Of a stretch of 42,094 bases of DNA, positions 1,959-24,419 are shown piece by piece; the first letter of the stretch is position 1, and every line of letters starts with the position of its first letter. The notes beneath the pieces were generated by a model. The model saw only the letters and a list, made by a program, of their open reading frames with translations. It was not told where the DNA came from and searched no databases. The translations under genes were made by a program, and so were the position numbers. Source of the stretch: Desulforhopalus sp. (GTDB taxonomy: Bacteria; Desulfobacterota; Desulfobulbia; Desulfobulbales; Desulfocapsaceae); NCBI GenBank assembly GCA_024710585.1, contig JANJUM010000084.1:1-42094 (forward strand). The letters run 5' to 3'.

Positions 1959-2402
1959 ATGCCTAACGTCAAAAATCTAAAGAGAAAACTTCTTATTACC
2001 TGCGAAGGTTTCACCCTTATCGAACTCCTGGTGGTGGTGATCATTCTCGGGTTATTGGCGTCATTGGTGGCGCCGAAGTTTTTCGGCAAGCTCGATAAGA
2101 GCAAGCAGATGGTGGCCAAGGCGCAGATAGAGTTGTTCAGCAGCGCCCTGGACAGCTTCAGGCTTGATAACGACCGCTACCCCTCAACCTCGGAGGGCTT
2201 GGCTGCCTTGCGAAAAAACGTCAATACTCTGGCAAAATGGTCAGGTCCCTATCTCCCCAAGGAGATTCCCCAGGACCCATGGGGGAGGGGGTATACCTAC
2301 CGCAGCCCGGGGGAGCATGGCGACTATGACCTCTTTAGTCTTGGTGCTGATGGCGTTGAAGGGGGCGAGGGTGAAAACGGCGATGTGGTCAGCTGGAAGT
2401 AA
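1959..2402 (+). CDS. gspG: Type II secretion system major pseudopilin GspG
   Basis: Prepilin motif GFTLIELLVVVIILGLLASLVAP; C-terminal PKEIPQDPWGRGYTYRSPGEHGDYDLFSLGADG typical of GspG. Confidence 0.96.
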   Translation: MPNVKNLKRKLLITCEGFTLIELLVVVIILGLLASLVAPKFFGKLDKSKQMVAKAQIELFSSALDSFRLDNDRYPSTSEGLAALRKNVNTLAKWSGPYLPKEIPQDPWGRGYTYRSPGEHGDYDLFSLGADGVEGGEGENGDVVSWK

Positions 2403-2417
2403 CCTCTGCTCAAGGCA

Positions 2418-3977
2418 TTGTCGATGAACGGAAGCGAGGTGCGATTTGCCGACTTTCCCCAGCAGCCGCCGAAGGTTGAAGGGTTGACGCCCAAACTGAT
2501 GAAGCGCTGGAAAGTAGTGCCTTTTGGCTGTGATGACGATAAGGTATCTCTCGCCGTTGCCGAAATGCCAGACCTGTTTTTTCTCGATGTGCTCGTTTCT
2601 CTTTTGGGTAAAGAGGTTCAGTGCCGTCCGACACGCGTCGAGGACCTCAACCGTATTCTTTATCGCTGGTATGAAGAGGAAGACGAACTCACCTCCGAAG
2701 AGAACGGGACGAGCGCCGATCATCTCGATATCTGGGAGGATCCGCAACGGTTGCGAAACCAGGCCTCGGAGGAGCCGGTAATCAAGCTGGTTGACGAAAT
2801 CATCGTCAGCGCGCTCGAACGCTCTGCTTCTGACATTCACTTCGAGCCGTTTCGCGAGCAATTCACTATCCGCTATCGCATCGATGGCGTGCTGCACGAC
2901 ACGCAGCGCCAGATACCGGCGACATATCAGCCGGCGGTCATTTCTCGCCTCAAGTTGATGGCGCGCATGAAGATCGATGAACGGCGCCTACCCCAGGACG
3001 GCCGCATCCGCTTTCTCGGTCCGCATGGGCCGATCGATATCCGCGTCTCCAGCGTGCCGACCCAGTTTGGCGAGAGCATGGTCTTGCGTTTGCTCGGCCA
3101 CGAGGAGGTGAAGCTCGATTTTACCTCGCTCGGCATGCCATTGCTGGTGAAGAGTGCCTTTCGCAGGGCCATTTCCAGATCCTATGGGCTGGTGCTGGTA
3201 ACCGGGCCGACCGGCAGCGGCAAGACCACGACCCTGTACACCGCCATTAACAGTCTCAACGCCCCAGACAAAAAAATTCTCACCATCGAGGACCCTGTAG
3301 AATATCAACTGCAGGGGATCAACCAGATCCAGGTCAAACCGAAGATCGGTCTCAGCTTCGCCTCGGCATTGCGCTCCTTTCTGCGCCAGGATCCAGATGT
3401 CATTCTGGTCGGCGAGATACGCGACGCAGAAACCGCCGAGATCGCCATCCATGCGGCACTTACCGGGCATCTGGTGTTCTCCACTCTCCATACTAACGAT
3501 TCGGCCGGGGCAATCACACGACTTCAGGAAATGGGAGTCGAGCCGTATTTGCTGACCTCTTCCCTGTTGGGCGTCATGGCGCAGAGACTGGTGCGGCGAA
3601 TTTGCCCGCAATGCGCGCGGGCTCGACCTTTTTCGAGCGAGACCATCCAGTATCTGCAGGATATCGTCGGACAAGGCGGCGAGGTGCCGACCGAGGAGCG
3701 GCGTGGAGATGGATGCGAGTTGTGCGGGCGCCGAGGGTATCGTGGCCGCACCGGGCTCTATGAATGGATGGAGATGTCCGACGACATTCGACAATTCGTG
3801 CTCAAACGTGCGGATAGCATGTCCATAAGCCGCGTAGCACAGTCTCAAGGCATGATTACGCTGTTGCAGTCTGGTATTGCCAAGGTTGCCGAAGGGTTGA
3901 CGACGTTTGAGGAGGTCCTCAGGGTTGCCAATGTTGCCGGGCAAGGTGCAGTGACAATAGTGGAGCCCTGCGAGTGA
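2418..3977 (+). CDS. gspE: Type II secretion ATPase GspE
   Basis: Walker A GPTGSGKTTTLY, Asp/His boxes (ILTIEDPVEYQL, GEIRDAETAEIAIHAALTGHLVFSTLHTNDS), tetra-Cys zinc motif CPQC...CELCG. Confidence 0.97.
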   Translation: MSMNGSEVRFADFPQQPPKVEGLTPKLMKRWKVVPFGCDDDKVSLAVAEMPDLFFLDVLVSLLGKEVQCRPTRVEDLNRILYRWYEEEDELTSEENGTSADHLDIWEDPQRLRNQASEEPVIKLVDEIIVSALERSASDIHFEPFREQFTIRYRIDGVLHDTQRQIPATYQPAVISRLKLMARMKIDERRLPQDGRIRFLGPHGPIDIRVSSVPTQFGESMVLRLLGHEEVKLDFTSLGMPLLVKSAFRRAISRSYGLVLVTGPTGSGKTTTLYTAINSLNAPDKKILTIEDPVEYQLQGINQIQVKPKIGLSFASALRSFLRQDPDVILVGEIRDAETAEIAIHAALTGHLVFSTLHTNDSAGAITRLQEMGVEPYLLTSSLLGVMAQRLVRRICPQCARARPFSSETIQYLQDIVGQGGEVPTEERRGDGCELCGRRGYRGRTGLYEWMEMSDDIRQFVLKRADSMSISRVAQSQGMITLLQSGIAKVAEGLTTFEEVLRVANVAGQGAVTIVEPCE

Positions 3978-5179
3978 CACGATATTCCTATGAGGCGATC
4001 GATGACGCTGGGCAAAAGGTGCGTGGCAGTGAGGAGGCCCTCGGCCGGGAAGAACTGATCGATAGCCTGCGCGAACGAAAGATGTTCCCCCTGGTTATCC
4101 GCAAGGTCGAGGCGGGGCGATGGCGCTTCCGGTTTTCCCGGGAAAAACGCGTATCGCATGACGACCTGCTCTTTCTGACCAGAGAGTTGGCTACACTGCT
4201 AAGCAAGGAAGTCTCCCTGGAAAGGGCGGTGTCGATCGTTGCCAGCAGTTGCGGCCACGAGGGGGTCTCGCGGCTGATGGCCGACATCAACCGTGTCCTG
4301 CATGGCGGCAACACCTTCAGCCAAGCCCTCCATGGGCATGCCAGTCTGTTCTCGAGGTTCTATGTCAGCATGATCCAGGTTGGCGAGGAGGGTGGCGTGC
4401 TCTCCGTGGTCATGCATCGTCTTGCACTCTATCTCGAGCGTCATCGACAAGTACGCGACGCCATCGTCAAGGCCTCAATTTATCCTGCCTTTCTCGTCTT
4501 GTTCAGCGGTTTGTCAGTGTTGGCACTGGTGTTTTTCGTCGTTCCCAAATTCGCGCAGATTTTTCAGGATCTCAACCAGCCCTTGCCGTTGCCCACCCAG
4601 GTACTTGCTGACTGCAGTGCGTTTCTTGGCCAGTGGTGGTGGCTTGTCTTGGGCGTGCTTGCAGTTGTGTGGCTGGCGGGGGCTCGCTGGTGTCGTAGCG
4701 AGATAGGCAAGGTGACCTGGAGCCGATGGTCACTTCGCTTGCCCTTGCTTGGACGATTGTACCACCTCATGGAACTGGCCACGTTTGCCAGGGCGATGGG
4801 AACGCTCATGGAAAGTGGTGTGCCCATTCTGCGCGGACTGGCCCTGGCTGGAGAGATAAGCGATAATGCCGTCGTCCGCAGGTCGATAGATGGCCTGTAT
4901 CAGCAGGTGCGTAAGGGAAGGTCCTTGAGCCTGGCTATGCGCGACGATCCATTCTTCCCCCCTCAGGTGGTGCATCTGACGGCCATAGGCGAGGAGGTTG
5001 GCAGCAGTGGACAGATGCTGCTCCAGTTGGCCGACGATGTCGAGACCAAATTGGAGCACGAGATCAAAATGTTGCTGGCGCTGATCGAGCCAGTGACCAT
5101 CGTCCTCATGGGCTTGATGATCGGTGGGATCATTATCGCCATGCTGCTGGCCATTTTCAGTATCAATGACTTGCAGTAG
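3974..5179 (+). CDS. gspF: Type II secretion inner-membrane platform protein GspF
   Basis: Two T2SSF repeats and C-terminal IEPVTIVLMGLMIGGIIIAMLLAIFSIND. GTG start overlaps the gspE stop. Confidence 0.96.
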   Translation: MTRYSYEAIDDAGQKVRGSEEALGREELIDSLRERKMFPLVIRKVEAGRWRFRFSREKRVSHDDLLFLTRELATLLSKEVSLERAVSIVASSCGHEGVSRLMADINRVLHGGNTFSQALHGHASLFSRFYVSMIQVGEEGGVLSVVMHRLALYLERHRQVRDAIVKASIYPAFLVLFSGLSVLALVFFVVPKFAQIFQDLNQPLPLPTQVLADCSAFLGQWWWLVLGVLAVVWLAGARWCRSEIGKVTWSRWSLRLPLLGRLYHLMELATFARAMGTLMESGVPILRGLALAGEISDNAVVRRSIDGLYQQVRKGRSLSLAMRDDPFFPPQVVHLTAIGEEVGSSGQMLLQLADDVETKLEHEIKMLLALIEPVTIVLMGLMIGGIIIAMLLAIFSINDLQ

Positions 5180-5304
5180 ATCTGACTTTTTACTGAAGTA
5201 TCATATTGAATATCTAAATCTGAACAAAAGCCTTCCATTCCAACAAGTAAATCTGCTATTATGCCACCTGTAAATGGTCAGGTAGGTCAATTCTTTATGC
5301 CGGA

Positions 5305-7104
5305 TTGAGGCGTAACGTGATGCGGAATCTTGTTGGACTTCATTGTTCTGTATGTGGGTTGCTGCTCGCTGCTGCACTGGCCTTTTTGCCATCCTGGCTT
5401 TTGGCTGAGGCACTTAGCGAGGCCACTTCCGAGGTAGCAGTCAACGGGGAAGCGACTGACGCACAAGGGTCGTCCTGTACGCTGATCCGTAAGGGCCGCA
5501 AAATCGTCAGACCCATGCTGGTTCAAAGCTTGAGCCAGTTTGGCGCGGCGGTTGCCATCGATGGGCCCTTTGCAGCTATTGGTGCCAGAGGAGAGGATGG
5601 GGGAAGTGGCTCACTTTATGTTTTTCAGGAGGGCGATGGGCGGTGGCGACAAGAAGCCCGGCTCAAGGAAGGGCAAGAAGGACGCGACAACCTCCTCGGA
5701 GCGGCAATCGCAGTTTCTGGCAACCTGATGGTTGCCGGTGCTCCTCGAGCGACGGTGAACGGCCTTGTCGACGCCGGGACTGTCTCACTTTTCACGCTCG
5801 ATGCAGGCGGCCTGTGGCGACAAACCGCCCGATTGACAGCAGATGAGCCTGGTTCTTCCGACCATTTCGGCATGGCCGTGGGGGTGTGGAAAAACAGCGT
5901 CATCGTCGGGGCCTGGAACGATAATGAAAGGGGAGAGGCAGCTGGGTCGGCGCACATCTTTGTCCAGGATGGTCACGGATGGTGGAATCATGCGGCCAAA
6001 TTGGTTCCGGCACAGGTCAGTGAAGAAGGCGGACCTGAGCAGACTGCGCCGGTGACTGCTGCCGTCGAAGAAGGCGCGGTTCCGGTCTCGTCGGTTCCCC
6101 AGCAATTTGGTTTGGCAGTGGCCATTGGCAAGGACTTCGCTCTGGTGGGGGCGCCGCGGCTTTCTGGCACGGTCCAGCAGCAAGCTGTCGAAGCGGGGGC
6201 AGTCTATGTTTTTGATAAAACAGGCCAGACCTGGACGCAGTCACACATTCTCCAACCCTCAGAGAAATCGTCTGGAGATGGCTTCGGGGCGTCCATCGCT
6301 GTTTGGGACGGATTTGCCATTATCGGATCTCCAGGCGACGACAGCCTGGGCCGCGACTCCGGAGCAGCCTATATCTTCAAGAAGAGTGGAAATTCCTGGT
6401 CGCAGGTTGCGCGTCTCACCGCGGCCGATGCTTCTGCCGGCGATCGCTTTGGAGTTTCTGTAGCGATGTACGGCAGCCACGTGGCAGTTGGTGCTATCGG
6501 CCACGACGGCGTCGGCGTCAACGCTGGCATGACCTACATTTTCGAAGGACTTGGCTCTGCATGGGAACAAAAGCTGCGAGTCAGCCCGGGCTTCCCCTCC
6601 GATGGCCAGAAGATGGGCATTGCCGTGGCGCTCAGTTCGAGACAGTTGCTCACTGGGTCCGATCCTGACGATTTTCTTCACCTTCCCGAGCAAGTCTATG
6701 ATTTTCCCTTATCGCCGCTCATCCGAGCGGAAAAAACTCTCTATGATTTTGGCATGGTGCCACCGGAATCGGAATCCGAGGAAGTGGAAATATTCCTGGA
6801 TAACCCGGGGGAACAGGCCACGACTATCGCCGGTATTTCTCTTTCTTCGGGCGATATCGGCGCCTTTGCAATCGTCAAGGATCGGTGCTCCGAGAAAAAG
6901 CTCAAGCCGGGCAGGCAATGCCGCATTGTCGCTCGCTTTACTCCCGACGTCGTCGGCTACTATGAGGCTTTGCTGACGGTGACTTCAGACCAATGCCTTG
7001 CCCTCGACATACCCCTCCGAGGAGTTGGCGCGAGTCCGGGCTACAGTATGAGCGCGGGGGATGATGGTGCCGTCGAGGAATTGTCATGGCCTCCAGGGCG
7101 CTAG
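5305..7104 (+). CDS. FG-GAP repeat beta-propeller protein with C-terminal ASH-like Ig domain
   Basis: Signal peptide LLLAAALAFLPSWLLA, about seven FG-GAP-like units (FGAAVAIDGPFAAIGA..., FGASIAVWDGFAIIGSPGDD..., FGVSVAMYGSHVAVGA...), then YDFGMVPPESESEEVEIFLDNPG...RFTPDVVGYYEALLTVTSD. Confidence 0.85.
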   Translation: MRRNVMRNLVGLHCSVCGLLLAAALAFLPSWLLAEALSEATSEVAVNGEATDAQGSSCTLIRKGRKIVRPMLVQSLSQFGAAVAIDGPFAAIGARGEDGGSGSLYVFQEGDGRWRQEARLKEGQEGRDNLLGAAIAVSGNLMVAGAPRATVNGLVDAGTVSLFTLDAGGLWRQTARLTADEPGSSDHFGMAVGVWKNSVIVGAWNDNERGEAAGSAHIFVQDGHGWWNHAAKLVPAQVSEEGGPEQTAPVTAAVEEGAVPVSSVPQQFGLAVAIGKDFALVGAPRLSGTVQQQAVEAGAVYVFDKTGQTWTQSHILQPSEKSSGDGFGASIAVWDGFAIIGSPGDDSLGRDSGAAYIFKKSGNSWSQVARLTAADASAGDRFGVSVAMYGSHVAVGAIGHDGVGVNAGMTYIFEGLGSAWEQKLRVSPGFPSDGQKMGIAVALSSRQLLTGSDPDDFLHLPEQVYDFPLSPLIRAEKTLYDFGMVPPESESEEVEIFLDNPGEQATTIAGISLSSGDIGAFAIVKDRCSEKKLKPGRQCRIVARFTPDVVGYYEALLTVTSDQCLALDIPLRGVGASPGYSMSAGDDGAVEELSWPPGR

Positions 7105-7589
7105 ATGCGCCCATGCTTCCGTCAGGAAAGCGAGGGCAGGACCTGCCCGGGGGGCAACACGGTTTCACGCTGCTCGAACTGCTGGTGGTCGTTGCCCTTC
7201 TGGCGATGGCGGTGGGCCTGGTTGCAGTTGCAGTCTCCTCGGGAATCCATGGTGTTCGAGAGCGCAATGTGCAAACGCACATGTACAGCGCATTGCAGCA
7301 TGCACGTGTCAAGGCAATGAATTCACGCAGGAATATCCGCTTCGTCATTGACGGAAGAAAACGGGTGTTTTTCTTCGAAGGCGGGGAGGTTCATGGTATT
7401 CCGGAATCGGTACAGGTTGAAGGTGGAAGGCTTCAGGACTTTTCCCCATCATTGAGAGGGTTGACGTTTTATCCAGATGGTTCCTCCTCCGGAGGCATTC
7501 TTACGCTCAGTCCTCCGACCGGAGCAGTGTGCGAGTTGGAAATCGATCGAGTGTTCGGCCTCGTCGCTCTCACCACGGGGAACCGATGA
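7086..7589 (+). CDS. gspH: Type II secretion minor pseudopilin GspH
   Basis: GFTLLELLVVVALLAMAVGLVAVAVSSG prepilin motif. Overlaps the preceding gene by 19 nt and lies between gspF and gspI. Confidence 0.87.
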   Translation: MASRALDAPMLPSGKRGQDLPGGQHGFTLLELLVVVALLAMAVGLVAVAVSSGIHGVRERNVQTHMYSALQHARVKAMNSRRNIRFVIDGRKRVFFFEGGEVHGIPESVQVEGGRLQDFSPSLRGLTFYPDGSSSGGILTLSPPTGAVCELEIDRVFGLVALTTGNR

Positions 7590-8002
7590 CGGTGCCTTGG
7601 CGTCGGCGTTTTGGCTCCGAGGGTTTCACCCTTTTCGAGGTGCTGGCGGCAACCGCATTGGCGGGGGTGTTTCTCGCTCTTTGCTTTGTCGGTTTCAGCC
7701 AGGAAAAAAGAAGACTTTATCGGGCCGAGCAGACGCAAGCCACGACCAATGTATTGCGCTACGCTCTAAGAGTTTTGGATCAAAAAGATCTGCAAGGGCG
7801 GTTACCTACAGTCATCGAAATGCCTCGGGACTTGGCAACCTGGCGGGTTACGGTCGAGCATGGGCAGTGCCCAGTGTTTTTGGGAGAAGGTGCCGAGGGA
7901 GCGAGGTTGGTGCCACTTGCAGGTTATATGCAGAGAGCGGTGGTGATTCAATCCCCCGATGGGCGACGCTACCTCTTGCGCCGCCTTGTTGAGAACCAAT
8001 GA
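7586..8002 (+). CDS. gspI: Type II secretion minor pseudopilin GspI
   Basis: GFTLFEVLAATALAGVFLAL prepilin motif. ATG 7586 in ATGA overlap with the gspH stop. Confidence 0.82.
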   Translation: MTVPWRRRFGSEGFTLFEVLAATALAGVFLALCFVGFSQEKRRLYRAEQTQATTNVLRYALRVLDQKDLQGRLPTVIEMPRDLATWRVTVEHGQCPVFLGEGAEGARLVPLAGYMQRAVVIQSPDGRRYLLRRLVENQ

Positions 8003-8763
8003 AGATGGGGCGAAATATCGGCTTTACCCTGCTGGAACTGCTGGTTGCGTTGACTCTTGCGGAATTGTTGATTGTTTTGCTCAGCCTTTCTTTGCGTTCA
8101 GGCTTGGTTTCGTGGATGGAACTGCGCAAGAACAATCAGCGTGTCATGCCGCAGCGCGCCGTCGAGGCTTTGCTCAATCGACAATTGCGGGCGGCCGTGC
8201 TCCCCAATACCCAGCAGGTTGGAAGCCCTCAGGTTTTTGTCGGGAGCAAAGAGAGCCTGGTCTTTACCACGAGTCATGCTTCCATGGGCAGTGAAGCGGC
8301 AGGGGTGATTCTGGTCGTATACACGCAGGACAGAGCGGGGTCGGATCTGTTGTATGCACAGCGGGTGCTGACGCGCACCTCGCAATTGACTGAAGTATTG
8401 CCAGTCGAACTGACAGTGGAGAGTCTGCCGGCAATGCGCGCGAAAGGGTGGGAAACAGCACGGATCAGCTCTGCAGGCGAGGTGCGCTTCGCCTTTCAAG
8501 GGCCTGAAGAGGCCGGGGAAGGTTCTCCTGAACGATGGCAAGAGCTCTGGCAGGACAGAGGGGGCGCGCCGTTAGCGGTGGCGATGCGGTGGCGTGACAC
8601 GAGAAATGGCAGACAGAGTGAAGAGCCATGGCGGATATTCGCTGTGGCCCCATTCCAATATTCTCGCGAAGAGGTCGCAATGCCTACCAAGGCAGGCGCT
8701 TTTGATGGCTTGGTAGGGGAAATTGATGGCAAAAGCAACCAGGCTGGAGTGCCGGTGCAATAG
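7999..8763 (+). CDS. gspJ: Type II secretion minor pseudopilin GspJ
   Basis: GFTLLELLVALTLAELLIVLLSLSLRSG prepilin motif. ATGA overlap with gspI; size and position fit GspJ. Confidence 0.85.
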   Translation: MKMGRNIGFTLLELLVALTLAELLIVLLSLSLRSGLVSWMELRKNNQRVMPQRAVEALLNRQLRAAVLPNTQQVGSPQVFVGSKESLVFTTSHASMGSEAAGVILVVYTQDRAGSDLLYAQRVLTRTSQLTEVLPVELTVESLPAMRAKGWETARISSAGEVRFAFQGPEEAGEGSPERWQELWQDRGGAPLAVAMRWRDTRNGRQSEEPWRIFAVAPFQYSREEVAMPTKAGAFDGLVGEIDGKSNQAGVPVQ

Positions 8764-9863
8764 TGAGGTGTACCTGCAAGCACCTTGCCTTCTTCTGCCA
8801 AAAGGGACAGCAGCAGGGTACTGTCATGGTGTTGGTCCTCTGGGTCATCGCCATGCTCTCCTCAGTGGCGATGCTGTACGGTGTCGCAGTTCGTGGCCGC
8901 TATCATGCTGAGGTTTATGCCTTGAACGATATGGAGGATATGGAGGCCATCGCCTCGCTGGCACTCGTGGTGCACCGACAACTTACGTTTTCTTCTTTCG
9001 ATACAGCCCAGGAGGGATCTCGCCATGGCTTTCAACTGCGAACGCAAGCATACCTCGCTGACCGGCAAGTGGGGGCGGAGCGGCCCTTGTGGACGGAGAG
9101 CAGCGAGGAGATGATGGGTCGAATCATTCCGGATGGGCGTGTCTACAAGGTGAAGATCGCAGACCGTCAGTACAGGCTCTCCGTGGAAGCGGAACAGGGG
9201 AAAGTGGATCTCAACGCAGTTCAAGAGGCATTCCTTCACCAGTTGTTGCGATGGTTGCAAGGGCGAAACGCAAGAGAAGGCGATGCGTTGGCAGACTGCC
9301 TGCTGGATTGGCGTGACAGTGACAATCTGGTCCGCCTGTCTGGTGCCGAGGAAGAGGCATATAGGCGCGCCGGTCTGGTCCAAGTCCCCGCTGACGGGCC
9401 CTTTGCCAGCGTCGATGAAATGCGTCTGGTCCTGGGAATGACCCCGCAACTCTACTTCGGACCTCTCGGCCAGGGCAGGGGGAAAGAGGTCGTCGAGCGG
9501 TGGGATGGCGGTTTGCGGGATCTCTTTACAGTCTACAATGGCACTGCTGATGTACTGCTAGATTACGCTCCGCCACCTCTCAGGGCGTTTTATGAAGACT
9601 TGGCCGCTATCGGTGGGGCGGAAGGGTTGGCAGAGACCGAGAGGGGAAAATCGCCACCTTTCCCCCGGCCTCCTTTCGCAGAAAAATCCATGGGGCAGAC
9701 GACTGGAAACGGTGAGTCCGCGAGGGTAGTGCTGCTTAAGGTGGACACGGGCCATGCCGCGTACCGGGTGTGGTTGCGCGTCAATGAAGGGAGCGTCTCC
9801 CCGAAGATACTCAGGGTGGAGGAAGATATGCATGCGATGATGGCAAGGCATGTTCAGAAATGA
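8763..9863 (+). CDS. gspK: Type II secretion minor pseudopilin GspK
   Basis: QQGTVMVLVLWVIAMLSSVAMLYGV, EQGKVDLNAVQEAFLHQLL, DCLLDWRDSDNLVRLSGAEEEAY (GspK signature LxDWxDxD). GTG start. Confidence 0.9.
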   Translation: MRCTCKHLAFFCQKGQQQGTVMVLVLWVIAMLSSVAMLYGVAVRGRYHAEVYALNDMEDMEAIASLALVVHRQLTFSSFDTAQEGSRHGFQLRTQAYLADRQVGAERPLWTESSEEMMGRIIPDGRVYKVKIADRQYRLSVEAEQGKVDLNAVQEAFLHQLLRWLQGRNAREGDALADCLLDWRDSDNLVRLSGAEEEAYRRAGLVQVPADGPFASVDEMRLVLGMTPQLYFGPLGQGRGKEVVERWDGGLRDLFTVYNGTADVLLDYAPPPLRAFYEDLAAIGGAEGLAETERGKSPPFPRPPFAEKSMGQTTGNGESARVVLLKVDTGHAAYRVWLRVNEGSVSPKILRVEEDMHAMMARHVQK

Positions 9864-11217
9864 AATCCTCGGGCTTGCCTGCTTGGGAGACAGAATTGAA
9901 AGCTGTCTTCTGATAAAACAGGGGAAACGCGCTGATGGGCCCTCCTGGGGGGCCGATCAGCTCCGCTCGCAAACCCTGGAGGTGCATGAACACAGAGAGG
10001 AAGCCGAGGTCTTGCGGCAGATACTGTCGCCGCTTGCGCCTTCCCGTCGTCGAGCGATCTGCTTGGGAATTGGGCGACGTCACTACCTGATGCGTGAGAT
10101 TCCTTGCCCTGGTTGCACTATAGAAGAAGCCATCGCCAGTATTCGTTTGTCACTTGATTATTATCTGCCGCTCCCCTGTGATGATGTCTACTGCGACCTG
10201 CTTGCCAAGCAGTGTAATGGAGTGGCCAACGTTCAACTGTACTGGGTGGAAAGAAGATACGTCGATGCCTTGGTTGCGGCTCTTCAAACAACTGGACATA
10301 TTCGTTCGCTGGTGACCGTTGCCCCCCTCTGCTGTGGCCTTGACCTGTATCTTCGCAGTTGTGGCCAGGAACACCTGCCGGGGTCATTGGTGTCAATGCA
10401 GACGCAGCTTCCCGTGGTGACCTTTCATGCCACTACGGAGTTCGCTGGGTCACTGCCGTTACGACTCGATTCGCAACAACGGCCGAAATTGGACCTGCCG
10501 TCCCTGGGAATGAAAATGGCCGAGACCATTGCCTTGCCGTTACGGATTCTCGGTATGCGGGGGGGGAACACTCATTTGCCGGCTCCACTTCAGCAATCCC
10601 TGGAAGAGGCCTTTCCTGATCAGGCCCTTATGTCCAGTTGCCTTCTCAATGTTGAGAATTGGGGTCAATGTGCGGCGATGCTGGCCTTTTCGGGCTCCAC
10701 GATGCCGCATTTTCATCCTGGCAAGCGAAGGGTGTGGCGAGAGGCTGGCGGCAAATTGCTTTTGAGCCTGACCGTCGTTGTGTTGCTCGCTGTGCTGGCC
10801 ATGGCCGCCTGTAATGGCTGGGAGTCAAGAGCCTTGCGCGAAAAGGCCGAAGAGCTTGAGGTCGATGCAAAGAGAGCACAGCAGAGGTATGCGCTGCTGG
10901 CATCCTCCGAAAAGGAACTTTTGGATATAAAGAAGCTCTACGACGATGTCAGCGCTTTCCGCATCGATTGCGTGGAATTGCTCGAGGCCTTGAAAAGTCT
11001 TGCCGAACAGACCCCAGCAACCACCTGGGTGCAGGGTTTGCAACAGAACGAAAGGAACGTGACCGTCGAGGTGGTTGGGACGGGAGCAGCCGACATCCTC
11101 GAGATATGGGGTAAAAATCCATATGTTGCGGGGGTTCGATTGGCGTCTCAGGTTAACAAGGATCGAGATGGCAAGGAGCATTTCCGCGTTGAGTTCCAAC
11201 TCCAGCGTGGGGAGTGA
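9850..11217 (+). CDS. gspL: Type II secretion GspL-like (PilM/PilN-type) protein
   Basis: Position between gspK and gspM; N-terminal actin-like region; single TM LLLSLTVVVLLAVLAMAACN; C-terminal periplasmic PilN-like domain. Confidence 0.75.
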   Translation: MFRNEILGLACLGDRIESCLLIKQGKRADGPSWGADQLRSQTLEVHEHREEAEVLRQILSPLAPSRRRAICLGIGRRHYLMREIPCPGCTIEEAIASIRLSLDYYLPLPCDDVYCDLLAKQCNGVANVQLYWVERRYVDALVAALQTTGHIRSLVTVAPLCCGLDLYLRSCGQEHLPGSLVSMQTQLPVVTFHATTEFAGSLPLRLDSQQRPKLDLPSLGMKMAETIALPLRILGMRGGNTHLPAPLQQSLEEAFPDQALMSSCLLNVENWGQCAAMLAFSGSTMPHFHPGKRRVWREAGGKLLLSLTVVVLLAVLAMAACNGWESRALREKAEELEVDAKRAQQRYALLASSEKELLDIKKLYDDVSAFRIDCVELLEALKSLAEQTPATTWVQGLQQNERNVTVEVVGTGAADILEIWGKNPYVAGVRLASQVNKDRDGKEHFRVEFQLQRGE

Positions 11218-11223
11218 CGAGAG

Positions 11224-11805
11224 ATGATCGGCGCAGTTCGGTTGCTTGTCCAACGTTTGCAGCACGTGAGCAACAGCCCGGTGATTTTTTTTGGTATCCC
11301 CCTGGCTTGTGTGCTGATGACGGTCAGATATCTCTACCTGCCGTCTGCAGGCGTCAATGATGAGCTCGCCCAGGTCATAGCGGCGCGAGAATCGAATATC
11401 GCTAAACTCAATGAGAAAACGAGGGAGATCCATGCCCGACTCGAAGGCAGGGAGGAGTGGGAGCAAAAGATGGCGATGATGGCAGGCCGAGGTGTCGATG
11501 GTGAAAGCCGGGAATCAGCAAATAGCCAGCTGGCGCGCCTGGTCACCGAATCCTGCACAAGCGCTGGCATGTCTGTTGTGAGCTACAACGGAGTCACGCC
11601 AAAGCAGTGGGAGGGAAGAGACCTCCTCGGGGTCAGTGTATCCATGGAGGGAAAAACCGAGAATCTCGTCGCCTTGCTGACACAGATACGCGAAAAGCTG
11701 CCGGATAGTCGCCTGCAATCCTTGCAGATTCAGAACGTTGATGTAGAGGCCTCGCGCCTGACCATACAGTTGGAGTTACATGCACTCTATTTCCCTCGTC
11801 GTTGA
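11224..11805 (+). CDS. gspM: Type II secretion GspM/PilO-like protein
   Basis: N-terminal TM, coiled coil, C-terminal ferredoxin-like region; operon position just upstream of gspD. Confidence 0.72.
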   Translation: MIGAVRLLVQRLQHVSNSPVIFFGIPLACVLMTVRYLYLPSAGVNDELAQVIAARESNIAKLNEKTREIHARLEGREEWEQKMAMMAGRGVDGESRESANSQLARLVTESCTSAGMSVVSYNGVTPKQWEGRDLLGVSVSMEGKTENLVALLTQIREKLPDSRLQSLQIQNVDVEASRLTIQLELHALYFPRR

Positions 11806-11812
11806 GCACACA

Positions 11813-13882
11813 ATGAATCGTCTTCTTTCTCGTCTTTCCGTGTTCGTCTGTCCCTCGGTCATCAGTGCTTTGATTGTACTGTGGCCATTCTGCCCAGTTC
11901 TTGCCCAGGATGAACTCGAACCAAAGCCACTTGTCGTCAATCGCGGTCTGGTCATGCCAGCCGACAGGAATCAGGCGAAGCCGGTAAATTTCGTGCTCGA
12001 TGACATGGATATCGAACCCCTGCTCGCCCATATCATCGGTGAAGCGCTTGGCCGCAATTATGTTATCGAACCCGGTATTCAGGGATCCATGTCACTCAAT
12101 ATCAAGGGAAGTTATACCGACGAGCAGCTGATGGAACTGCTCAACGCGGTGTTTCAGCTGCACGGTATTGCCATTGTCGAAGGCGAGAACGGCATGATCA
12201 AAGTGGTCAAGAAAGGGGCAAGTGGTCGCTTTACCAGTGTTTTCGGTGAGGATGGCGGCGGGCGGAAGTCTGTGGGTGACCGAATCAGCGTTTTTCAACT
12301 GTCGTATCTCACTCCGAGCCATGTGGCGCAGATAATTGCCAACTTTGTGTCACCTGGTGCCGTCGTATTGCCCGAAGCAAAGACCAACAGCCTGATCGTT
12401 GTAGATTCACCGGAGGTGTTGCGGAAAATTCGGCAGATAATCAGTATGATGGACACAGATTTCTTCAAGGATCTCTACTGGAACATCTATACGCCTATTT
12501 ATGCCGATGTCGCCGAGTTGACCAAGGACCTCGAAAAGATCTTCAAGGCCAAAGGATTGTACAGTCTTCCTGGAACCGATTCAGGTGGCATTCAGATTAT
12601 GCCGCTTAAAACCATCGGGGGGCTTCTGGTCATCAGCAAATGGCAGAGCGCCCTCGATCTTGTAGGGCATTTCGTCAAGGAACTCGATCGTGGCAACGCC
12701 GGGAAAAGTAGCAAGCTGTATGTCTATACTGTGCAAAATAATAGTGCCGAAAATATCGCCAAGATGTTGACGGAGATCTTTGGCGACGAGAGTGCCAAGA
12801 CGCCTAAAGGGGAAGAACGAAAGGTGGTGGTCAAGAGAGCCGAGATGCCAGAAGCCCAATCTGAAGAGGAGACTGGGGATGTCGAGTTGAGTGGCGACGT
12901 CAGATTCATTCCCAATCAGGACTTGAATCTCTTGCTGGTAAAAGCATCTCCACGGGATTATGCCATAATCAACGATATTATCGAGAAACTCGATATCTTG
13001 CCGCGACAGGTGATGATCGATGTGATCATCGTCGATGTCAAACTGAATGACGGCATGGAATATGGCATTCAGTGGCTGCTCAAGCAGAAAAAAATAACTC
13101 TTAATGGGGACCGATATTCCTCCGATGTCGCGCTGTCTTTCCCCAGCGAGCTTGGGAATCTTGAAAAAGACACGCTTCTCGGCAAAGGTTTGTCGGGCTT
13201 GACCTATGGCCTGTTCGATTCTGCCGGAGATCTGGCAGGTCTGATTCGACTCATAGCGAGCAAGACGGACACCAATTTGCTGGCGTCCCCCAACATCCTC
13301 GCGGTGGACAACAAGGAGTCAACCATCGAGGCGGGGGAAGAGGTGCCCACCAAAACCGGCGAGACGACCACCGCCACTGGTTCGACGACGCAATCGATCC
13401 AGTACCGGCAAACCGGCTTTATCCTCAAGGTCAAGCCATCGATCAACGACAGTGGTGTCGTTCGCCTGGAAGTCACGCAAGAATACAGCGAAGTTTCCAG
13501 TCGGGATACCGGCGGCGCCGAGTCTCCGGCATTTATAAAGCGGAAGGCGGCAACCAATCTCGTCGCCCATGATGGCCAGACCGTGGTGATCGGCGGGCTG
13601 ATCAAACAGACACAAAACGCAGTCAGCGCAGGCATTCCGTACTTACAGGATATCCCTGTGCTTGGCTATCTCTTTGGCGGCAGTCAGGTCTCAAAGGATA
13701 AGAGCGAACTTCTCATCGCCATCACCCCCCATGTTATCCGCAGCAAGGAACAGGTCGATGATCTCACCGCTCAGTTCGTAGGCCGTGTCAAGGCGCTGAA
13801 GGATGTTATCGAAGAGGCCAAAGGCGCAAAAGCGTCACCATCGACAGATGGTGACGGGGCAGTGCCAAAGGAAGAACGATGA
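11813..13882 (+). CDS. gspD: Type II secretion outer-membrane secretin GspD
   Basis: N0/N1-N3 domains and secretin core (VRLEVTQEYSEVSS...NLVAHDGQTVVIGGLIKQTQNAVSAGIPYLQDIPVLGYLFGGSQVSKDKSELLIAITPHVI). ATG 11813 preferred over the ORF-track start at 11780. Confidence 0.95.
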   Translation: MNRLLSRLSVFVCPSVISALIVLWPFCPVLAQDELEPKPLVVNRGLVMPADRNQAKPVNFVLDDMDIEPLLAHIIGEALGRNYVIEPGIQGSMSLNIKGSYTDEQLMELLNAVFQLHGIAIVEGENGMIKVVKKGASGRFTSVFGEDGGGRKSVGDRISVFQLSYLTPSHVAQIIANFVSPGAVVLPEAKTNSLIVVDSPEVLRKIRQIISMMDTDFFKDLYWNIYTPIYADVAELTKDLEKIFKAKGLYSLPGTDSGGIQIMPLKTIGGLLVISKWQSALDLVGHFVKELDRGNAGKSSKLYVYTVQNNSAENIAKMLTEIFGDESAKTPKGEERKVVVKRAEMPEAQSEEETGDVELSGDVRFIPNQDLNLLLVKASPRDYAIINDIIEKLDILPRQVMIDVIIVDVKLNDGMEYGIQWLLKQKKITLNGDRYSSDVALSFPSELGNLEKDTLLGKGLSGLTYGLFDSAGDLAGLIRLIASKTDTNLLASPNILAVDNKESTIEAGEEVPTKTGETTTATGSTTQSIQYRQTGFILKVKPSINDSGVVRLEVTQEYSEVSSRDTGGAESPAFIKRKAATNLVAHDGQTVVIGGLIKQTQNAVSAGIPYLQDIPVLGYLFGGSQVSKDKSELLIAITPHVIRSKEQVDDLTAQFVGRVKALKDVIEEAKGAKASPSTDGDGAVPKEER

Positions 13883-13922
13883 AAGTGCGCCTGTTGTTTG
13901 CGGGGGTTTCCTTTTGGCAACA

Positions 13923-14741
13923 ATGAAAAAGCAATCATTTCTGGGGTGCTGGGAGATGCTGAAGGGGGCCTTGGCATGGCGCTTGGCATCTCGTGCGCTG
14001 GTCTTGCTGGTCTGTTCGATGTTCTGGCCGGAGCTCAACAAGTGTCTGGCCCAGGAAGATTTCAGCAGTATCTACAGTAAGGATCTGTTTTCCCCGCAAC
14101 GTCGCCAGGCTCCCGTTGCCCAGCCAGATGTACTTCCTGAGCCTTTTCCACCTCCGCAAGAAGCACAGAATACCATCGTGTTGCGCGGCATTGTCGAAAT
14201 CGGTGGGGTGCGACGTGCTTGTCTGACCTTGCAGGATGGGACTCGCTCTGCTCAGGCCTTGTCCCCGTCCGGAGAAAACACCACGGTGCTTGGAAGAGGC
14301 GAAACAACTGGGCGTTGGGTGGTCGAAAAGGTGCAAGAACGTTCGGTCGAACTCGTCGACAAGGGCGGGCAACGACTTCACCTGTCCATTTACGATGTCA
14401 AGACTCAGGGAACGAAGGCGAAGGGGAAAAAGCAGGCGGTGGGGCTGTTGACCAAACCGGATATGCCGCCACCTCCCCCCATCATACACTCCGCGCCAGC
14501 ACAGACTCAAGAAGGATCGAGTGTTCAAGTTGAAGGCGAGACTCCTGCTGCACCTGAGGCAACGACGCACAATCACTCTCGAGAAGAAGAAAGCCTGGCC
14601 GAGGAAATCAGCCGCCAGCAGGTGACGAAGGGAAGAAAGCTGCGCGGGGGGGATGGCAACAAACGACGTGAAGGGCTGTCCGGCTCGCCAGCACCACCCC
14701 CGATTCCCTCAGAACTCTATCGCACGACATCGAAGGAATAG
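13923..14741 (+). CDS. gspC: GspC-like type II secretion clamp protein (HR-type domain, no PDZ)
   Basis: N-terminal hydrophobic segment, DLFSPQR, then TIVLRGIVEIGGVRRACLTLQDG...RWVVEKVQERSVELVDKGGQRLHLSIYD (HR/PulP-like fold), then a proline- and charge-rich tail. Confidence 0.6.
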   Translation: MKKQSFLGCWEMLKGALAWRLASRALVLLVCSMFWPELNKCLAQEDFSSIYSKDLFSPQRRQAPVAQPDVLPEPFPPPQEAQNTIVLRGIVEIGGVRRACLTLQDGTRSAQALSPSGENTTVLGRGETTGRWVVEKVQERSVELVDKGGQRLHLSIYDVKTQGTKAKGKKQAVGLLTKPDMPPPPPIIHSAPAQTQEGSSVQVEGETPAAPEATTHNHSREEESLAEEISRQQVTKGRKLRGGDGNKRREGLSGSPAPPPIPSELYRTTSKE

Positions 14742-21309: not shown

Positions 21310-21464
21310 GATGGCTGCCCGCTGACAAAAATGGAATACCCCGGCCCGCCCGGCGGCTGCGGGCCGGAGGGTGGCTGGGCGATGGCCTGTGCAAAATATC
21401 CGTTCTCTCTCCTCCCGGCAAGAGCTATCCGCCTCCTCTGGCGGTCGCCACCTTTTCCGAAGCG

Positions 21465-24419
21465 ATGCCCGCCACCCTCGACGAATACCTCGACGCCCTG
21501 AAAAGCTCCCGTAAGTTCGGGCCGCAGGTAGTCTGTCAGCGCACCACGGCGGCGCTGCCGGCGGCCTTTGCCGGTTCCACGCCATCGCTCTCCCCGGTCT
21601 TGTGGCGTGCTCTTCAACAAGGGGGTATCGACCGACTCTATAGCCACCAGGCGGAGGCGATAGAGCTCATCTGCGCCGGCCATGACGTGGTGGTGGCAAC
21701 GCCCACCGCCTCGGGCAAGAGCCTCATCTACAACCTGCCGGTGGTCGATGACCTCCTCGGTGACTCCCCCGGCCACTCGCTCTACCTCTTCCCCCTCAAG
21801 GCCCTCGCCCAGGATCAATACCAGGGGCTGTGCACGCTCTTTGGGCGGCTGCCGGAGGGGGAGCGCAGCCGGCATCCACGCCTCGCCGCCCTTTTCGATG
21901 GCGACACCGGCAGCGCTCTGCGGCGACGCATCAAGGACGACCCGCCGCGGGTGCTGTTCACCAATCCCGAGATGCTCCATCTGTCCCTGCTCCCCTATCA
22001 TCAGGGCTGGCAGGAATTTTTCTCGCGCCTGCGCTACGTAGTGGTCGACGAGGTGCACAGCTACCGCGGCATTTTCGGCAGCCACATGGCCTGGGTGCTG
22101 CGCCGCCTGCAGCGCCTTGCCGAACATTACGGCAGTTCGCCGATCTTCGTGCTGCTCTCGGCCACCGTCGGCAACCCCGGCGAACTCGGCGGCAGGTTGC
22201 TGGGCAGGGAGGTGAAGGTGGTCACGACTTCGGGAGCCCCCGGTGCCGAGCGCCACATGCTCTTGCTCAACCCCTGGGACAGCGCCGCCCATGCCGCCAG
22301 CCAGCTGCTCGAGGCGGCGATAAAGCGGGGGCTGCGCACCATCGTTTACACCCAGTCGCGACGCATGACCGAGTTGATCAGCATGTGGACCGCGCCGCGC
22401 CTTGGCCCCCTGGCGGGGCGGCTGAGCGCCTACCGCGCCGGGTTCCTTCCCGAGGAACGGCGCGATATCGAGAGGTTGCTGTTCAGTGGCGAACTGCTCG
22501 GGGTGGTGGCGACTTCGGCGCTGGAACTGGGTATCGATATCGGCGACCTCGACCTCTGCCTGCTCGTCGGCTATCCCGGTTCGATCATGGCCACCAGGCA
22601 GCGGGGCGGCAGGGTGGGGCGGGGCATGCGCCCCTCGGCAACAGTCCTCATCGGCCAGGAGGATGCCCTCGATCAGCACTTCATGCGCATCCCCGAAGAT
22701 TTCTTCGCCCGCTCGCCGGAAGCGGCGGTGCTCAACCCCGGCAACCCGGCGGTGATGGCGCAGCATCTGCAATGTGCCGCCGCCGAGTTGCCCTTGCGGC
22801 GGGATGAGGTTCTCCTTGAAGACGAGGAACGGCGTCAGGCGGTGCAGCGGCTGGAAGAGGCGAAATTTCTCCTGCAGACCGCCGACGGCGAGCGCTGGAT
22901 TGCCTCGCGCACCTTGCCGCAGCGTGATGTCAGCCTGCGCGGGGCTGGCCGTCAGATGGTCATCATCGATGGTGAGAACGGCGAGATCATTGGCGAAATT
23001 GACAGCGGCCGGGCTATCAAGGAGTGTCACCAGGGAGCAGTCTACCTCCATCGCGCCACCACCTGGGTGGTGGAACGTTTCTCCCTCGACGATGGCGAGA
23101 TCGTCGCCAGACGTCACAGCCCGAGTTACTTCACCCGGCCAACCAGCGACAAACGAACGGAAATTCTTGCAACCCAGAGTTCCAAAGGGACTTTTGTCGC
23201 CGCGGTGCACTTCGGTCGCGTACGCGTCACCGAGCGGGTCACCGGCTACCAGAAACGCAACAATCATACCCAGAAGCTGGTAACCACAGTCCCCCTTGAC
23301 ATGCCCGAGCAGACCATGGAGAGCGAAGGGCTGTGGCTCGTCATCCCTGCCGAGATCGTTCTCCTCTGCGAAAAGGAGAAATACCATTTCATGGGGGCCA
23401 TCCACGCCCTGGAACACGCCATGATCGCCCTCTTTCCCCTGCTGGTGCTCTGCGACCGTAACGATATCGGCGGAATCTCCTGTCCGCTGCACGCGCAGAC
23501 GGAGGAGGCGACGATTTTTCTCTATGATGGCTACCCCGGAGGGGTCGGCCTGTGCGCCGAAGCCTACGCCAGGATCGACGAGCTTCTCCTGCAGACGAGG
23601 CAAACGGTGGCCACCTGCCCCTGCGAGAACGGGTGCCCCTCCTGTGTCCACTCGCCACGTTGTGGTTCGGGAAACCGGCCGATAGATAAAAAGGCCTGCC
23701 TCTATTTGCTCGAGTTGCTGCTGGTCAGGGAGTCGGTGCAGGCAAAGGCGGTGCCTGCCGTGCCTCCTGTGCCCCACGTCCTCGCCACGGCGCCGTCTCA
23801 AGCCCCGCTGCAAGTATCGCCTCGGGGCCTGGCGGCCCTGCCGGAGCATTTCGTCGTCTTCGATGTGGAGACCCAAAGGTCGGCGGAGGAGGCAGGCGGC
23901 TGGCACCGCGCCGACAATATGGGGCTAGCGCTGGCCGTGGTCTATGATTCGCGCTTGGGGGATTTTATCACCTATCTCGAAGACGAGGCCGAGCGGCTGG
24001 TCGAGCATCTTGCCGGCAGCGAACTCGTCGTCGGCTTCAACAACCGGCGCTTCGACAATCTGGTGCTCTCCGCCTACAGTTCCATCGACCTCAATTGCCT
24101 GCCGACGCTTGACCTGCTCGAGGAGGTCCACAATGCCCTTGGCTATCGCATCAGCTTGAACGGCCTCGCCGAACATACCCTGGGGGTAAAAAAGATGGCG
24201 GATGGTCTGCAGTCGCTGCGCTGGTACAAGGAAGGGCGCATCGATCTCATCCGTCATTATTGTCGTCAGGATGTGGAGATTACCCGCGACCTCTTCCTGC
24301 ATGCCCTCGAGCACGGCTACCTGCTGTTCGCCAACAAGAAAAAGGTCGAAGTGCGGCTGCCTCTGGCACTGGACAGGCGCATCGAGGCCCTGCTCGCCAT
24401 GGCTGCGAGAGATAAGTGA
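21465..24419 (+). CDS. MrfA-like DEAD/DEAH-box helicase with DUF1998 zinc site fused to MrfB-like DEDDy 3'-5' exonuclease domain
   Basis: Helicase motifs TPTASGKS, DEVH, SATVGN, QRGGRVGRG; Cys cluster CPCENGCPSCVHSPRCGSGN; C-terminal RNase H-like exonuclease FVVFDVETQ...VVGFNNRRFDNLVL...YCRQDVEITRDLFLHAL. Confidence 0.9.
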   Translation: MPATLDEYLDALKSSRKFGPQVVCQRTTAALPAAFAGSTPSLSPVLWRALQQGGIDRLYSHQAEAIELICAGHDVVVATPTASGKSLIYNLPVVDDLLGDSPGHSLYLFPLKALAQDQYQGLCTLFGRLPEGERSRHPRLAALFDGDTGSALRRRIKDDPPRVLFTNPEMLHLSLLPYHQGWQEFFSRLRYVVVDEVHSYRGIFGSHMAWVLRRLQRLAEHYGSSPIFVLLSATVGNPGELGGRLLGREVKVVTTSGAPGAERHMLLLNPWDSAAHAASQLLEAAIKRGLRTIVYTQSRRMTELISMWTAPRLGPLAGRLSAYRAGFLPEERRDIERLLFSGELLGVVATSALELGIDIGDLDLCLLVGYPGSIMATRQRGGRVGRGMRPSATVLIGQEDALDQHFMRIPEDFFARSPEAAVLNPGNPAVMAQHLQCAAAELPLRRDEVLLEDEERRQAVQRLEEAKFLLQTADGERWIASRTLPQRDVSLRGAGRQMVIIDGENGEIIGEIDSGRAIKECHQGAVYLHRATTWVVERFSLDDGEIVARRHSPSYFTRPTSDKRTEILATQSSKGTFVAAVHFGRVRVTERVTGYQKRNNHTQKLVTTVPLDMPEQTMESEGLWLVIPAEIVLLCEKEKYHFMGAIHALEHAMIALFPLLVLCDRNDIGGISCPLHAQTEEATIFLYDGYPGGVGLCAEAYARIDELLLQTRQTVATCPCENGCPSCVHSPRCGSGNRPIDKKACLYLLELLLVRESVQAKAVPAVPPVPHVLATAPSQAPLQVSPRGLAALPEHFVVFDVETQRSAEEAGGWHRADNMGLALAVVYDSRLGDFITYLEDEAERLVEHLAGSELVVGFNNRRFDNLVLSAYSSIDLNCLPTLDLLEEVHNALGYRISLNGLAEHTLGVKKMADGLQSLRWYKEGRIDLIRHYCRQDVEITRDLFLHALEHGYLLFANKKKVEVRLPLALDRRIEALLAMAARDK

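Follow-up and report, generated by a model that had tools for sequence, protein, structure and literature searches.

A YprA-family helicase joined in one chain to a DEDDy exonuclease in Desulfobacterota, a possible functional counterpart of MrfAB

The window, meaning here the whole analyzed stretch of 42,094 nucleotides, comes from a Desulfobacterota bacterium whose named relatives are Desulfobulbaceae and other Desulfobacterota/Thermodesulfobacteriota. Its forward strand carries a stop-free frame at 21465–24419, the translation of which yields a protein of 984 amino acids with the following composition:

21465–24419, + strand: whole gene, YprA-family helicase plus DEDDy 3'-5' exonuclease, 984 aa
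21642–22172, + strand: DEAD (RecA1), residues 60–236, with TPTASGKS and DEVH (Pfam PF00270, E 9e-29)
22305–22622, + strand: Helicase_C (RecA2), residues 281–386, with QRGGRVGR (Pfam PF00271, E 4e-10)
22734–22946, + strand: HRQ1-type winged helix (WHD_HRQ1), residues 424–494 (Pfam PF22982, E 9e-10)
23409–23663, + strand: MZB/DUF1998, residues 649–728, with the Cys cluster and the following C733 (PF09369, E 2e-23, and alignment)
23733–23813, + strand: disordered Pro/Ala-rich linker, residues 757–783 (pLDDT below 50)
23844–24416, + strand: DEDDy exonuclease domain, residues 794–984 (alignment, profile matches, model and fold match)

Among the closest relatives of the window, the gene is flanked by a prephenate dehydratase-like gene on one side and by LdcA-like and CoaX-like genes on the other. 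These conserved chromosomal neighbors indicate a stable housekeeping locus, and a plasmid search for the gene under study gave no match. Just 5' of the gene, at 21397–21440, lies a stretch resembling CAAAATATACATTCTCnGCTCTTTAAGC that is common to most loci of the same genus and may be a candidate promoter or operator of either the fusion gene or its divergent neighbor. Elsewhere in the window, positions 1959–14741 hold a putative type II secretion/pseudopilin cluster, with pseudopilins, GspE, GspF, a GspD-like secretin and others, as read from sequence.

An earlier note on this DNA had described a complete helicase followed by a nuclease, and its coordinates for the frame and the linker were correct. 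Every helicase motif that it quoted is indeed found, namely TPTASGKS (residues 79–86), DEVH (195–198), SATVGN (232–237), QRGGRVGRG (379–387) and CPCENGCPSC (718–727). The zinc-cluster cysteines C718, C720, C724 and C727 and the following C733 show no variation across 23 aligned relatives. The order of DEAD, Helicase_C, winged helix and MZB domains is that of MrfA, which places the protein in the YprA/MrfA (DUF1998) family. Its closest solved relative in sequence is Bacillus subtilis YprA/MrfA (6znp, E 6.5e-150), and the full-length structure model matches the same entry with 35% identity (E 9e-72) over the span of the helicase.

In the predicted structure, well-folded domains flank the low-pLDDT residues 757–783 on both sides. 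The wider linker varies in length from 32 to 150 residues, with a median of 43.5 over 94 relatives. The C-terminal domain carries FDVET (799–803), FNNRRFD (858–864) and YCRQD (932–936), and the residues D800, E802, D864, D883, Y932 and D936 are identical in all 94 aligned relatives. Two Desulfoluna loci seemed to carry Val where the catalytic Tyr is expected, but this was a pattern artefact, as the alignment has Tyr in 94 of 94. The model of the domain (mean pLDDT 95) adopts the fold of DnaQ-type 3'-5' exonucleases, the nearest solved folds being the 3'-5' exonuclease domains of T7 and family-B DNA polymerases. The D-x-E, D and Y-x3-D residues on a DnaQ fold thus assign it to the DEDDy class of the DnaQ superfamily. 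A search of PDB sequences with the exonuclease profile returned chance matches and T7 polymerase only.

Among the Pfam domains that the earlier note expected, DEAD, Helicase_C and DUF1998 were recovered, but RNase_H_2 (PF13482) was not: at the Pfam cut-off, the exonuclease of the window copy receives no domain call. Relatives do match this profile, 21 of 22 at E<1 with a best value of 2e-12, and fused-family members score, e.g., 38.3 and 35.4 bits against a cut-off of 22, so that the label 'RNase_H_2 superfamily' is probably right. Motifs, Pfam matches, model and linker together uphold the view of a single polypeptide in a Gram-negative bacterium that combines a DUF1998/YprA-family helicase with a linker-borne, C-terminal DEDDy exonuclease. 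Both sets of motifs are intact in the chain, and both activities are predicted from sequence.

The fused frame is neither a chance product nor a misassembly, because near-complete matches to the whole fusion recur, with 52–67% identity, in 37 of the 57 genomes that belong to the same order or are more closely related. A survey of 297 genomes from across the phylum finds the fused-type nuclease in 86; in 80 of these positive genomes (about 80/297) it lies within a frame of at least 900 aa. Helicase, zinc and nuclease motifs share one frame in 67 of the 80 named loci; six of the remaining 13 are cut by a contig end. Pairwise distances of the helicase and exonuclease parts over 94 fused proteins correlate with r = 0.87, a value reached in none of 2000 permutations, which indicates that both halves have travelled together. 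The fusion is therefore old and has been inherited vertically as a unit in Desulfobacterota. A 320-residue N-terminal extension of one member (G293, L182) was considered as a domain and ruled out as a low-complexity, out-of-gene frame.

The fused-type exonuclease is also seen on its own. One genome that also has the fusion encodes a standalone copy of 188 aa (L167, 4367–4930, + strand, G156:C12), next to putative RmuC-like, NERD/UvrD-like helicase and WYL-type regulator genes, as read from sequence. Another standalone copy, of 219 aa (L166, 6612–7268, − strand, G279:C22), lies beside a dGTPase-like gene on a contig without a YprA helicase.

A rival interpretation, close to that of the earlier note, is a literal fusion in which the orthologues of Bacillus MrfA and MrfB themselves make up one chain. 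Helicase and nuclease do belong to the same superfamilies as MrfA and MrfB, fused-nuclease relatives reach PF13482, which is the Pfam family of MrfB, and YprA helicases 'fused to' MrfB/YprB homologs are mentioned in one clause of a 2025 preprint (PMC12458937). Nonetheless, the nuclease departs from MrfB on several points. In B. subtilis, MrfB is a DEDDh exonuclease with a C-terminal TPR domain, and its Leu113 helps to part the duplex (PMC11194089); the earlier note had described MrfB as DEDDy. The Exo III residue is Tyr (Tyr932) in 94 of 94 fused proteins versus His in all ten operon MrfBs and in the B. subtilis protein. The fused protein ends with its exonuclease domain and has no TPR, whereas operon MrfB has TPR matches. 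Where MrfB has its Leu wedge, six residues past the initial catalytic Asp, it carries Ser806 (Ser in 88 and Leu in 2 of 94 relatives). Profile comparison by hhalign relates the fused nuclease only remotely to MrfB (probability 40%, E 3e-4). A group of standalone DEDDy proteins is nearer to it (94%, E 2e-7) than MrfB is, and is itself closer to MrfB (99%, E 1e-17, for host-type members). The single standalone RNase_H_2 protein of the host belongs to this group, which is common in the phylum; it is encoded on another contig (L070, 1246–2085, + strand, G000:C171) and is a DEDDy protein with the motif DIETTGL and an HhH-like N-terminus.

Genuine MrfB, with a DEDDh site and TPR, does exist in other Desulfobacterota, where it adjoins a YprA helicase gene in the ten genomes examined. 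The representative at L069 matches the MrfB structure 8un9 (E 1e-28) and has TPR matches, and the Exo III residue is His in each of ten relatives. The host genome has no MrfB by the criterion of E < 1e-30. Frames of 1203–1247 aa around MrfB in three genomes (G076, G274 and G336) had pointed to true MrfA-MrfB fusions; in the two inspected, G076 and G336, the helicase occupies a different frame, which makes the long one a spurious overlap.

The helicase, too, proved not to be the orthologue closest to MrfA. In a tree of 73 helicases, obtained by a quick search with a midpoint root on a set without SftH or defense-branch rows, a branch that receives 100% SH-aLRT support separates 19 rows, namely B. 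subtilis YprA/MrfA and every one of the 18 operon MrfAs, from the fused, exonuclease-less and 'MrfB-first' helicases. The sole Bacillota row derives from a PDB alignment (residues 41–732). The AU test rejects a topology that unites B. subtilis YprA with the fused and exonuclease-less rows (p-AU 8e-6). Taken with the nuclease differences, tree and AU test make a literal MrfA-MrfB fusion unlikely. The NCBIfam profile TIGR03817 failed as a separator of fused from operon helicases (711 versus 620–762 bits). The 'MrfB-first' pairs are found at two loci (L183, 276–4057, − strand, G322; L184, 2–2670, + strand, G078), where a TPR-less DEDDh exonuclease of MrfB type lies upstream of, and overlaps, a YprA helicase whose place in the tree is with the fused clade and not with MrfA. 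Judged by sequence, these overlapping pairs possibly represent a third arrangement.

The distribution of both nucleases is mutually exclusive. Of the same 297 genomes, 86 carry the fused type and 41 carry MrfB (E below 1e-30); no genome has both, where 11.9 shared ones would be expected (hypergeometric p 2e-7, for genomes that are related and not independent). As the genomes are related, a count by family is fairer: 30 families have the fused type, 14 have MrfB and none has both against 3.9 expected, a modest p of about 0.007. Such exclusion is the pattern expected if either form meets the same need, and in part it may be a lineage effect, since lineage history could contribute. Given that the nuclease is not MrfB, that the helicase is not closest to MrfA and that no genome holds both, the fusion seems to be a functional counterpart of MrfAB that was assembled independently. 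What stands of the 'MrfA-MrfB fused' description is hence its outline, a helicase-nuclease fusion with a distribution that fits a counterpart of MrfAB; the identity of the nuclease as MrfB and of the helicase as the closest MrfA does not.

Eight helicase-only proteins were found, which require two state changes on the tree; exonuclease-less relatives occur in G026 and in families f57, f72 and f98. Since the helicase stands alone in several relatives, some of them can do without the nuclease. In G026, the orthologue of the window gene (L172, 3051–5375, − strand) has the same locus and neighbors and stops right after the zinc domain; no nuclease remnant could be recognized in the intergenic DNA that follows or in the rest of the genome. 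By its sequence, this gene is a natural deletion of the exonuclease domain.

Compared with known systems, the fused protein resembles B. subtilis MrfA/MrfB in pairing a DEAD/Helicase_C/winged helix/MZB helicase with a 3'-5' exonuclease of the DnaQ superfamily. Unlike this pair, it is one chain, DEDDy instead of DEDDh, without TPR and without the Leu wedge, and its helicase lies across a fully supported branch from MrfA. SftH of Mycobacterium smegmatis and other 'YprA only' proteins are YprA-family helicases without MrfB, exactly the architecture of the f57, f72 and f98 relatives, but they lack the exonuclease of the fused protein. Staphylococcus aureus DinG and human WRN likewise hold a helicase and a DnaQ-fold exonuclease in one chain, yet with the exonuclease at the N-terminus and helicases of other families; S. 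aureus DinG, moreover, is DEDDh with 5'-3' polarity (PMC12345164). A full-text literature search retrieved one paper mentioning fusions of the present kind, the aforementioned preprint (PMC12458937), so the fusion as such is not new. The proteins named there are repair-branch YprA-family helicases with a fused nuclease and very likely include the present ones; its text is silent on the class of the nuclease, the distinctness of the helicase clade and the mutual exclusion with MrfAB.

We consider a single-chain chromosomal DNA-repair helicase-exonuclease to be the probable and best explanation; it would be the functional counterpart of MrfAB, with a helicase from another YprA branch and a nuclease of another class (DEDDy). 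The broader proposal, that MrfAB-like helicase-exonuclease repair has originated two or more times, with a different YprA branch in Desulfobacterota capturing by fusion an exonuclease of an unrelated class (DEDDy) and replacing MrfAB so that each genome has one or the other, is in our judgement evenly balanced. One alternative is an RNA-processing helicase-exoribonuclease, in which a nuclease like RNase D or NrnC would be joined to a DExH helicase. Related DEDDy folds also act on RNA, which counts against a role in DNA repair; the fold is common to DEDDy exoribonucleases, and weak matches to PF01612 occur in all 22 members tested. Against this stand the whole-length match of the helicase to the DNA helicase MrfA and the best fold matches of the nuclease, which are DNA polymerase proofreading domains, making an RNA substrate quite improbable. 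The least plausible alternative is a stand-alone anti-phage protein from the YprA defense branch (of the Druantia, ARMADA or DISARM kind). Such systems are built around YprA-family helicases, of which some have a nuclease at the C-terminus (PMC12458937). However, the weak PADLOC matches cover the generic helicase core and no nuclease, the housekeeping neighborhood is conserved, inheritance is vertical, and the closest match is YprA itself.

For the favored repair helicase-exonuclease, a mechanism may be sketched by analogy. MrfA and SftH are reported to be 3'-5' helicases (PMC12458937), and the MrfA helicase and the 3'-5' exonuclease MrfB share one pathway (PMC11194089, PMC12458937). Like MrfA and SftH, the fused helicase would move 3'-5' on one strand, and it would open the duplex where there is a nick, a gap or a stalled end; the tethered exonuclease would digest the single-stranded 3' tail of the tracking strand behind the motor, removing damaged nucleotides. 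Because a 3'-5' motor leaves behind a 3' tail of its tracking strand that a tethered 3'-5' exonuclease can digest, both activities would work on one strand with one polarity. The Leu wedge with which MrfB parts the duplex is absent, so that the exonuclease probably needs the helicase to supply it with single strands. A likely role would be to excise adducted DNA starting at nicks or gaps, in parallel with UvrABC; the host genome encodes an intact uvrA, and the UvrABC independence suggested by the earlier note, like any specificity for mitomycin, is a hypothetical property of the fused protein.

In B. subtilis, MrfA and MrfB are epistatic; according to PMC11194089, the exonuclease works slowly on its own, with no demonstrated drive from the helicase. 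Complementation by MrfAB homologs is reported for close relatives only (PMC12458937). An ancient, natural enzyme that unites helicase and exonuclease in one chain, and whose nuclease has no wedge to open the duplex, suggests a direct hand-over from motor to nuclease, for which the fusion offers a one-protein test reagent. That two nuclease classes were taken up by two YprA branches, mutually exclusive across the phylum, points to selection for the coupling itself.
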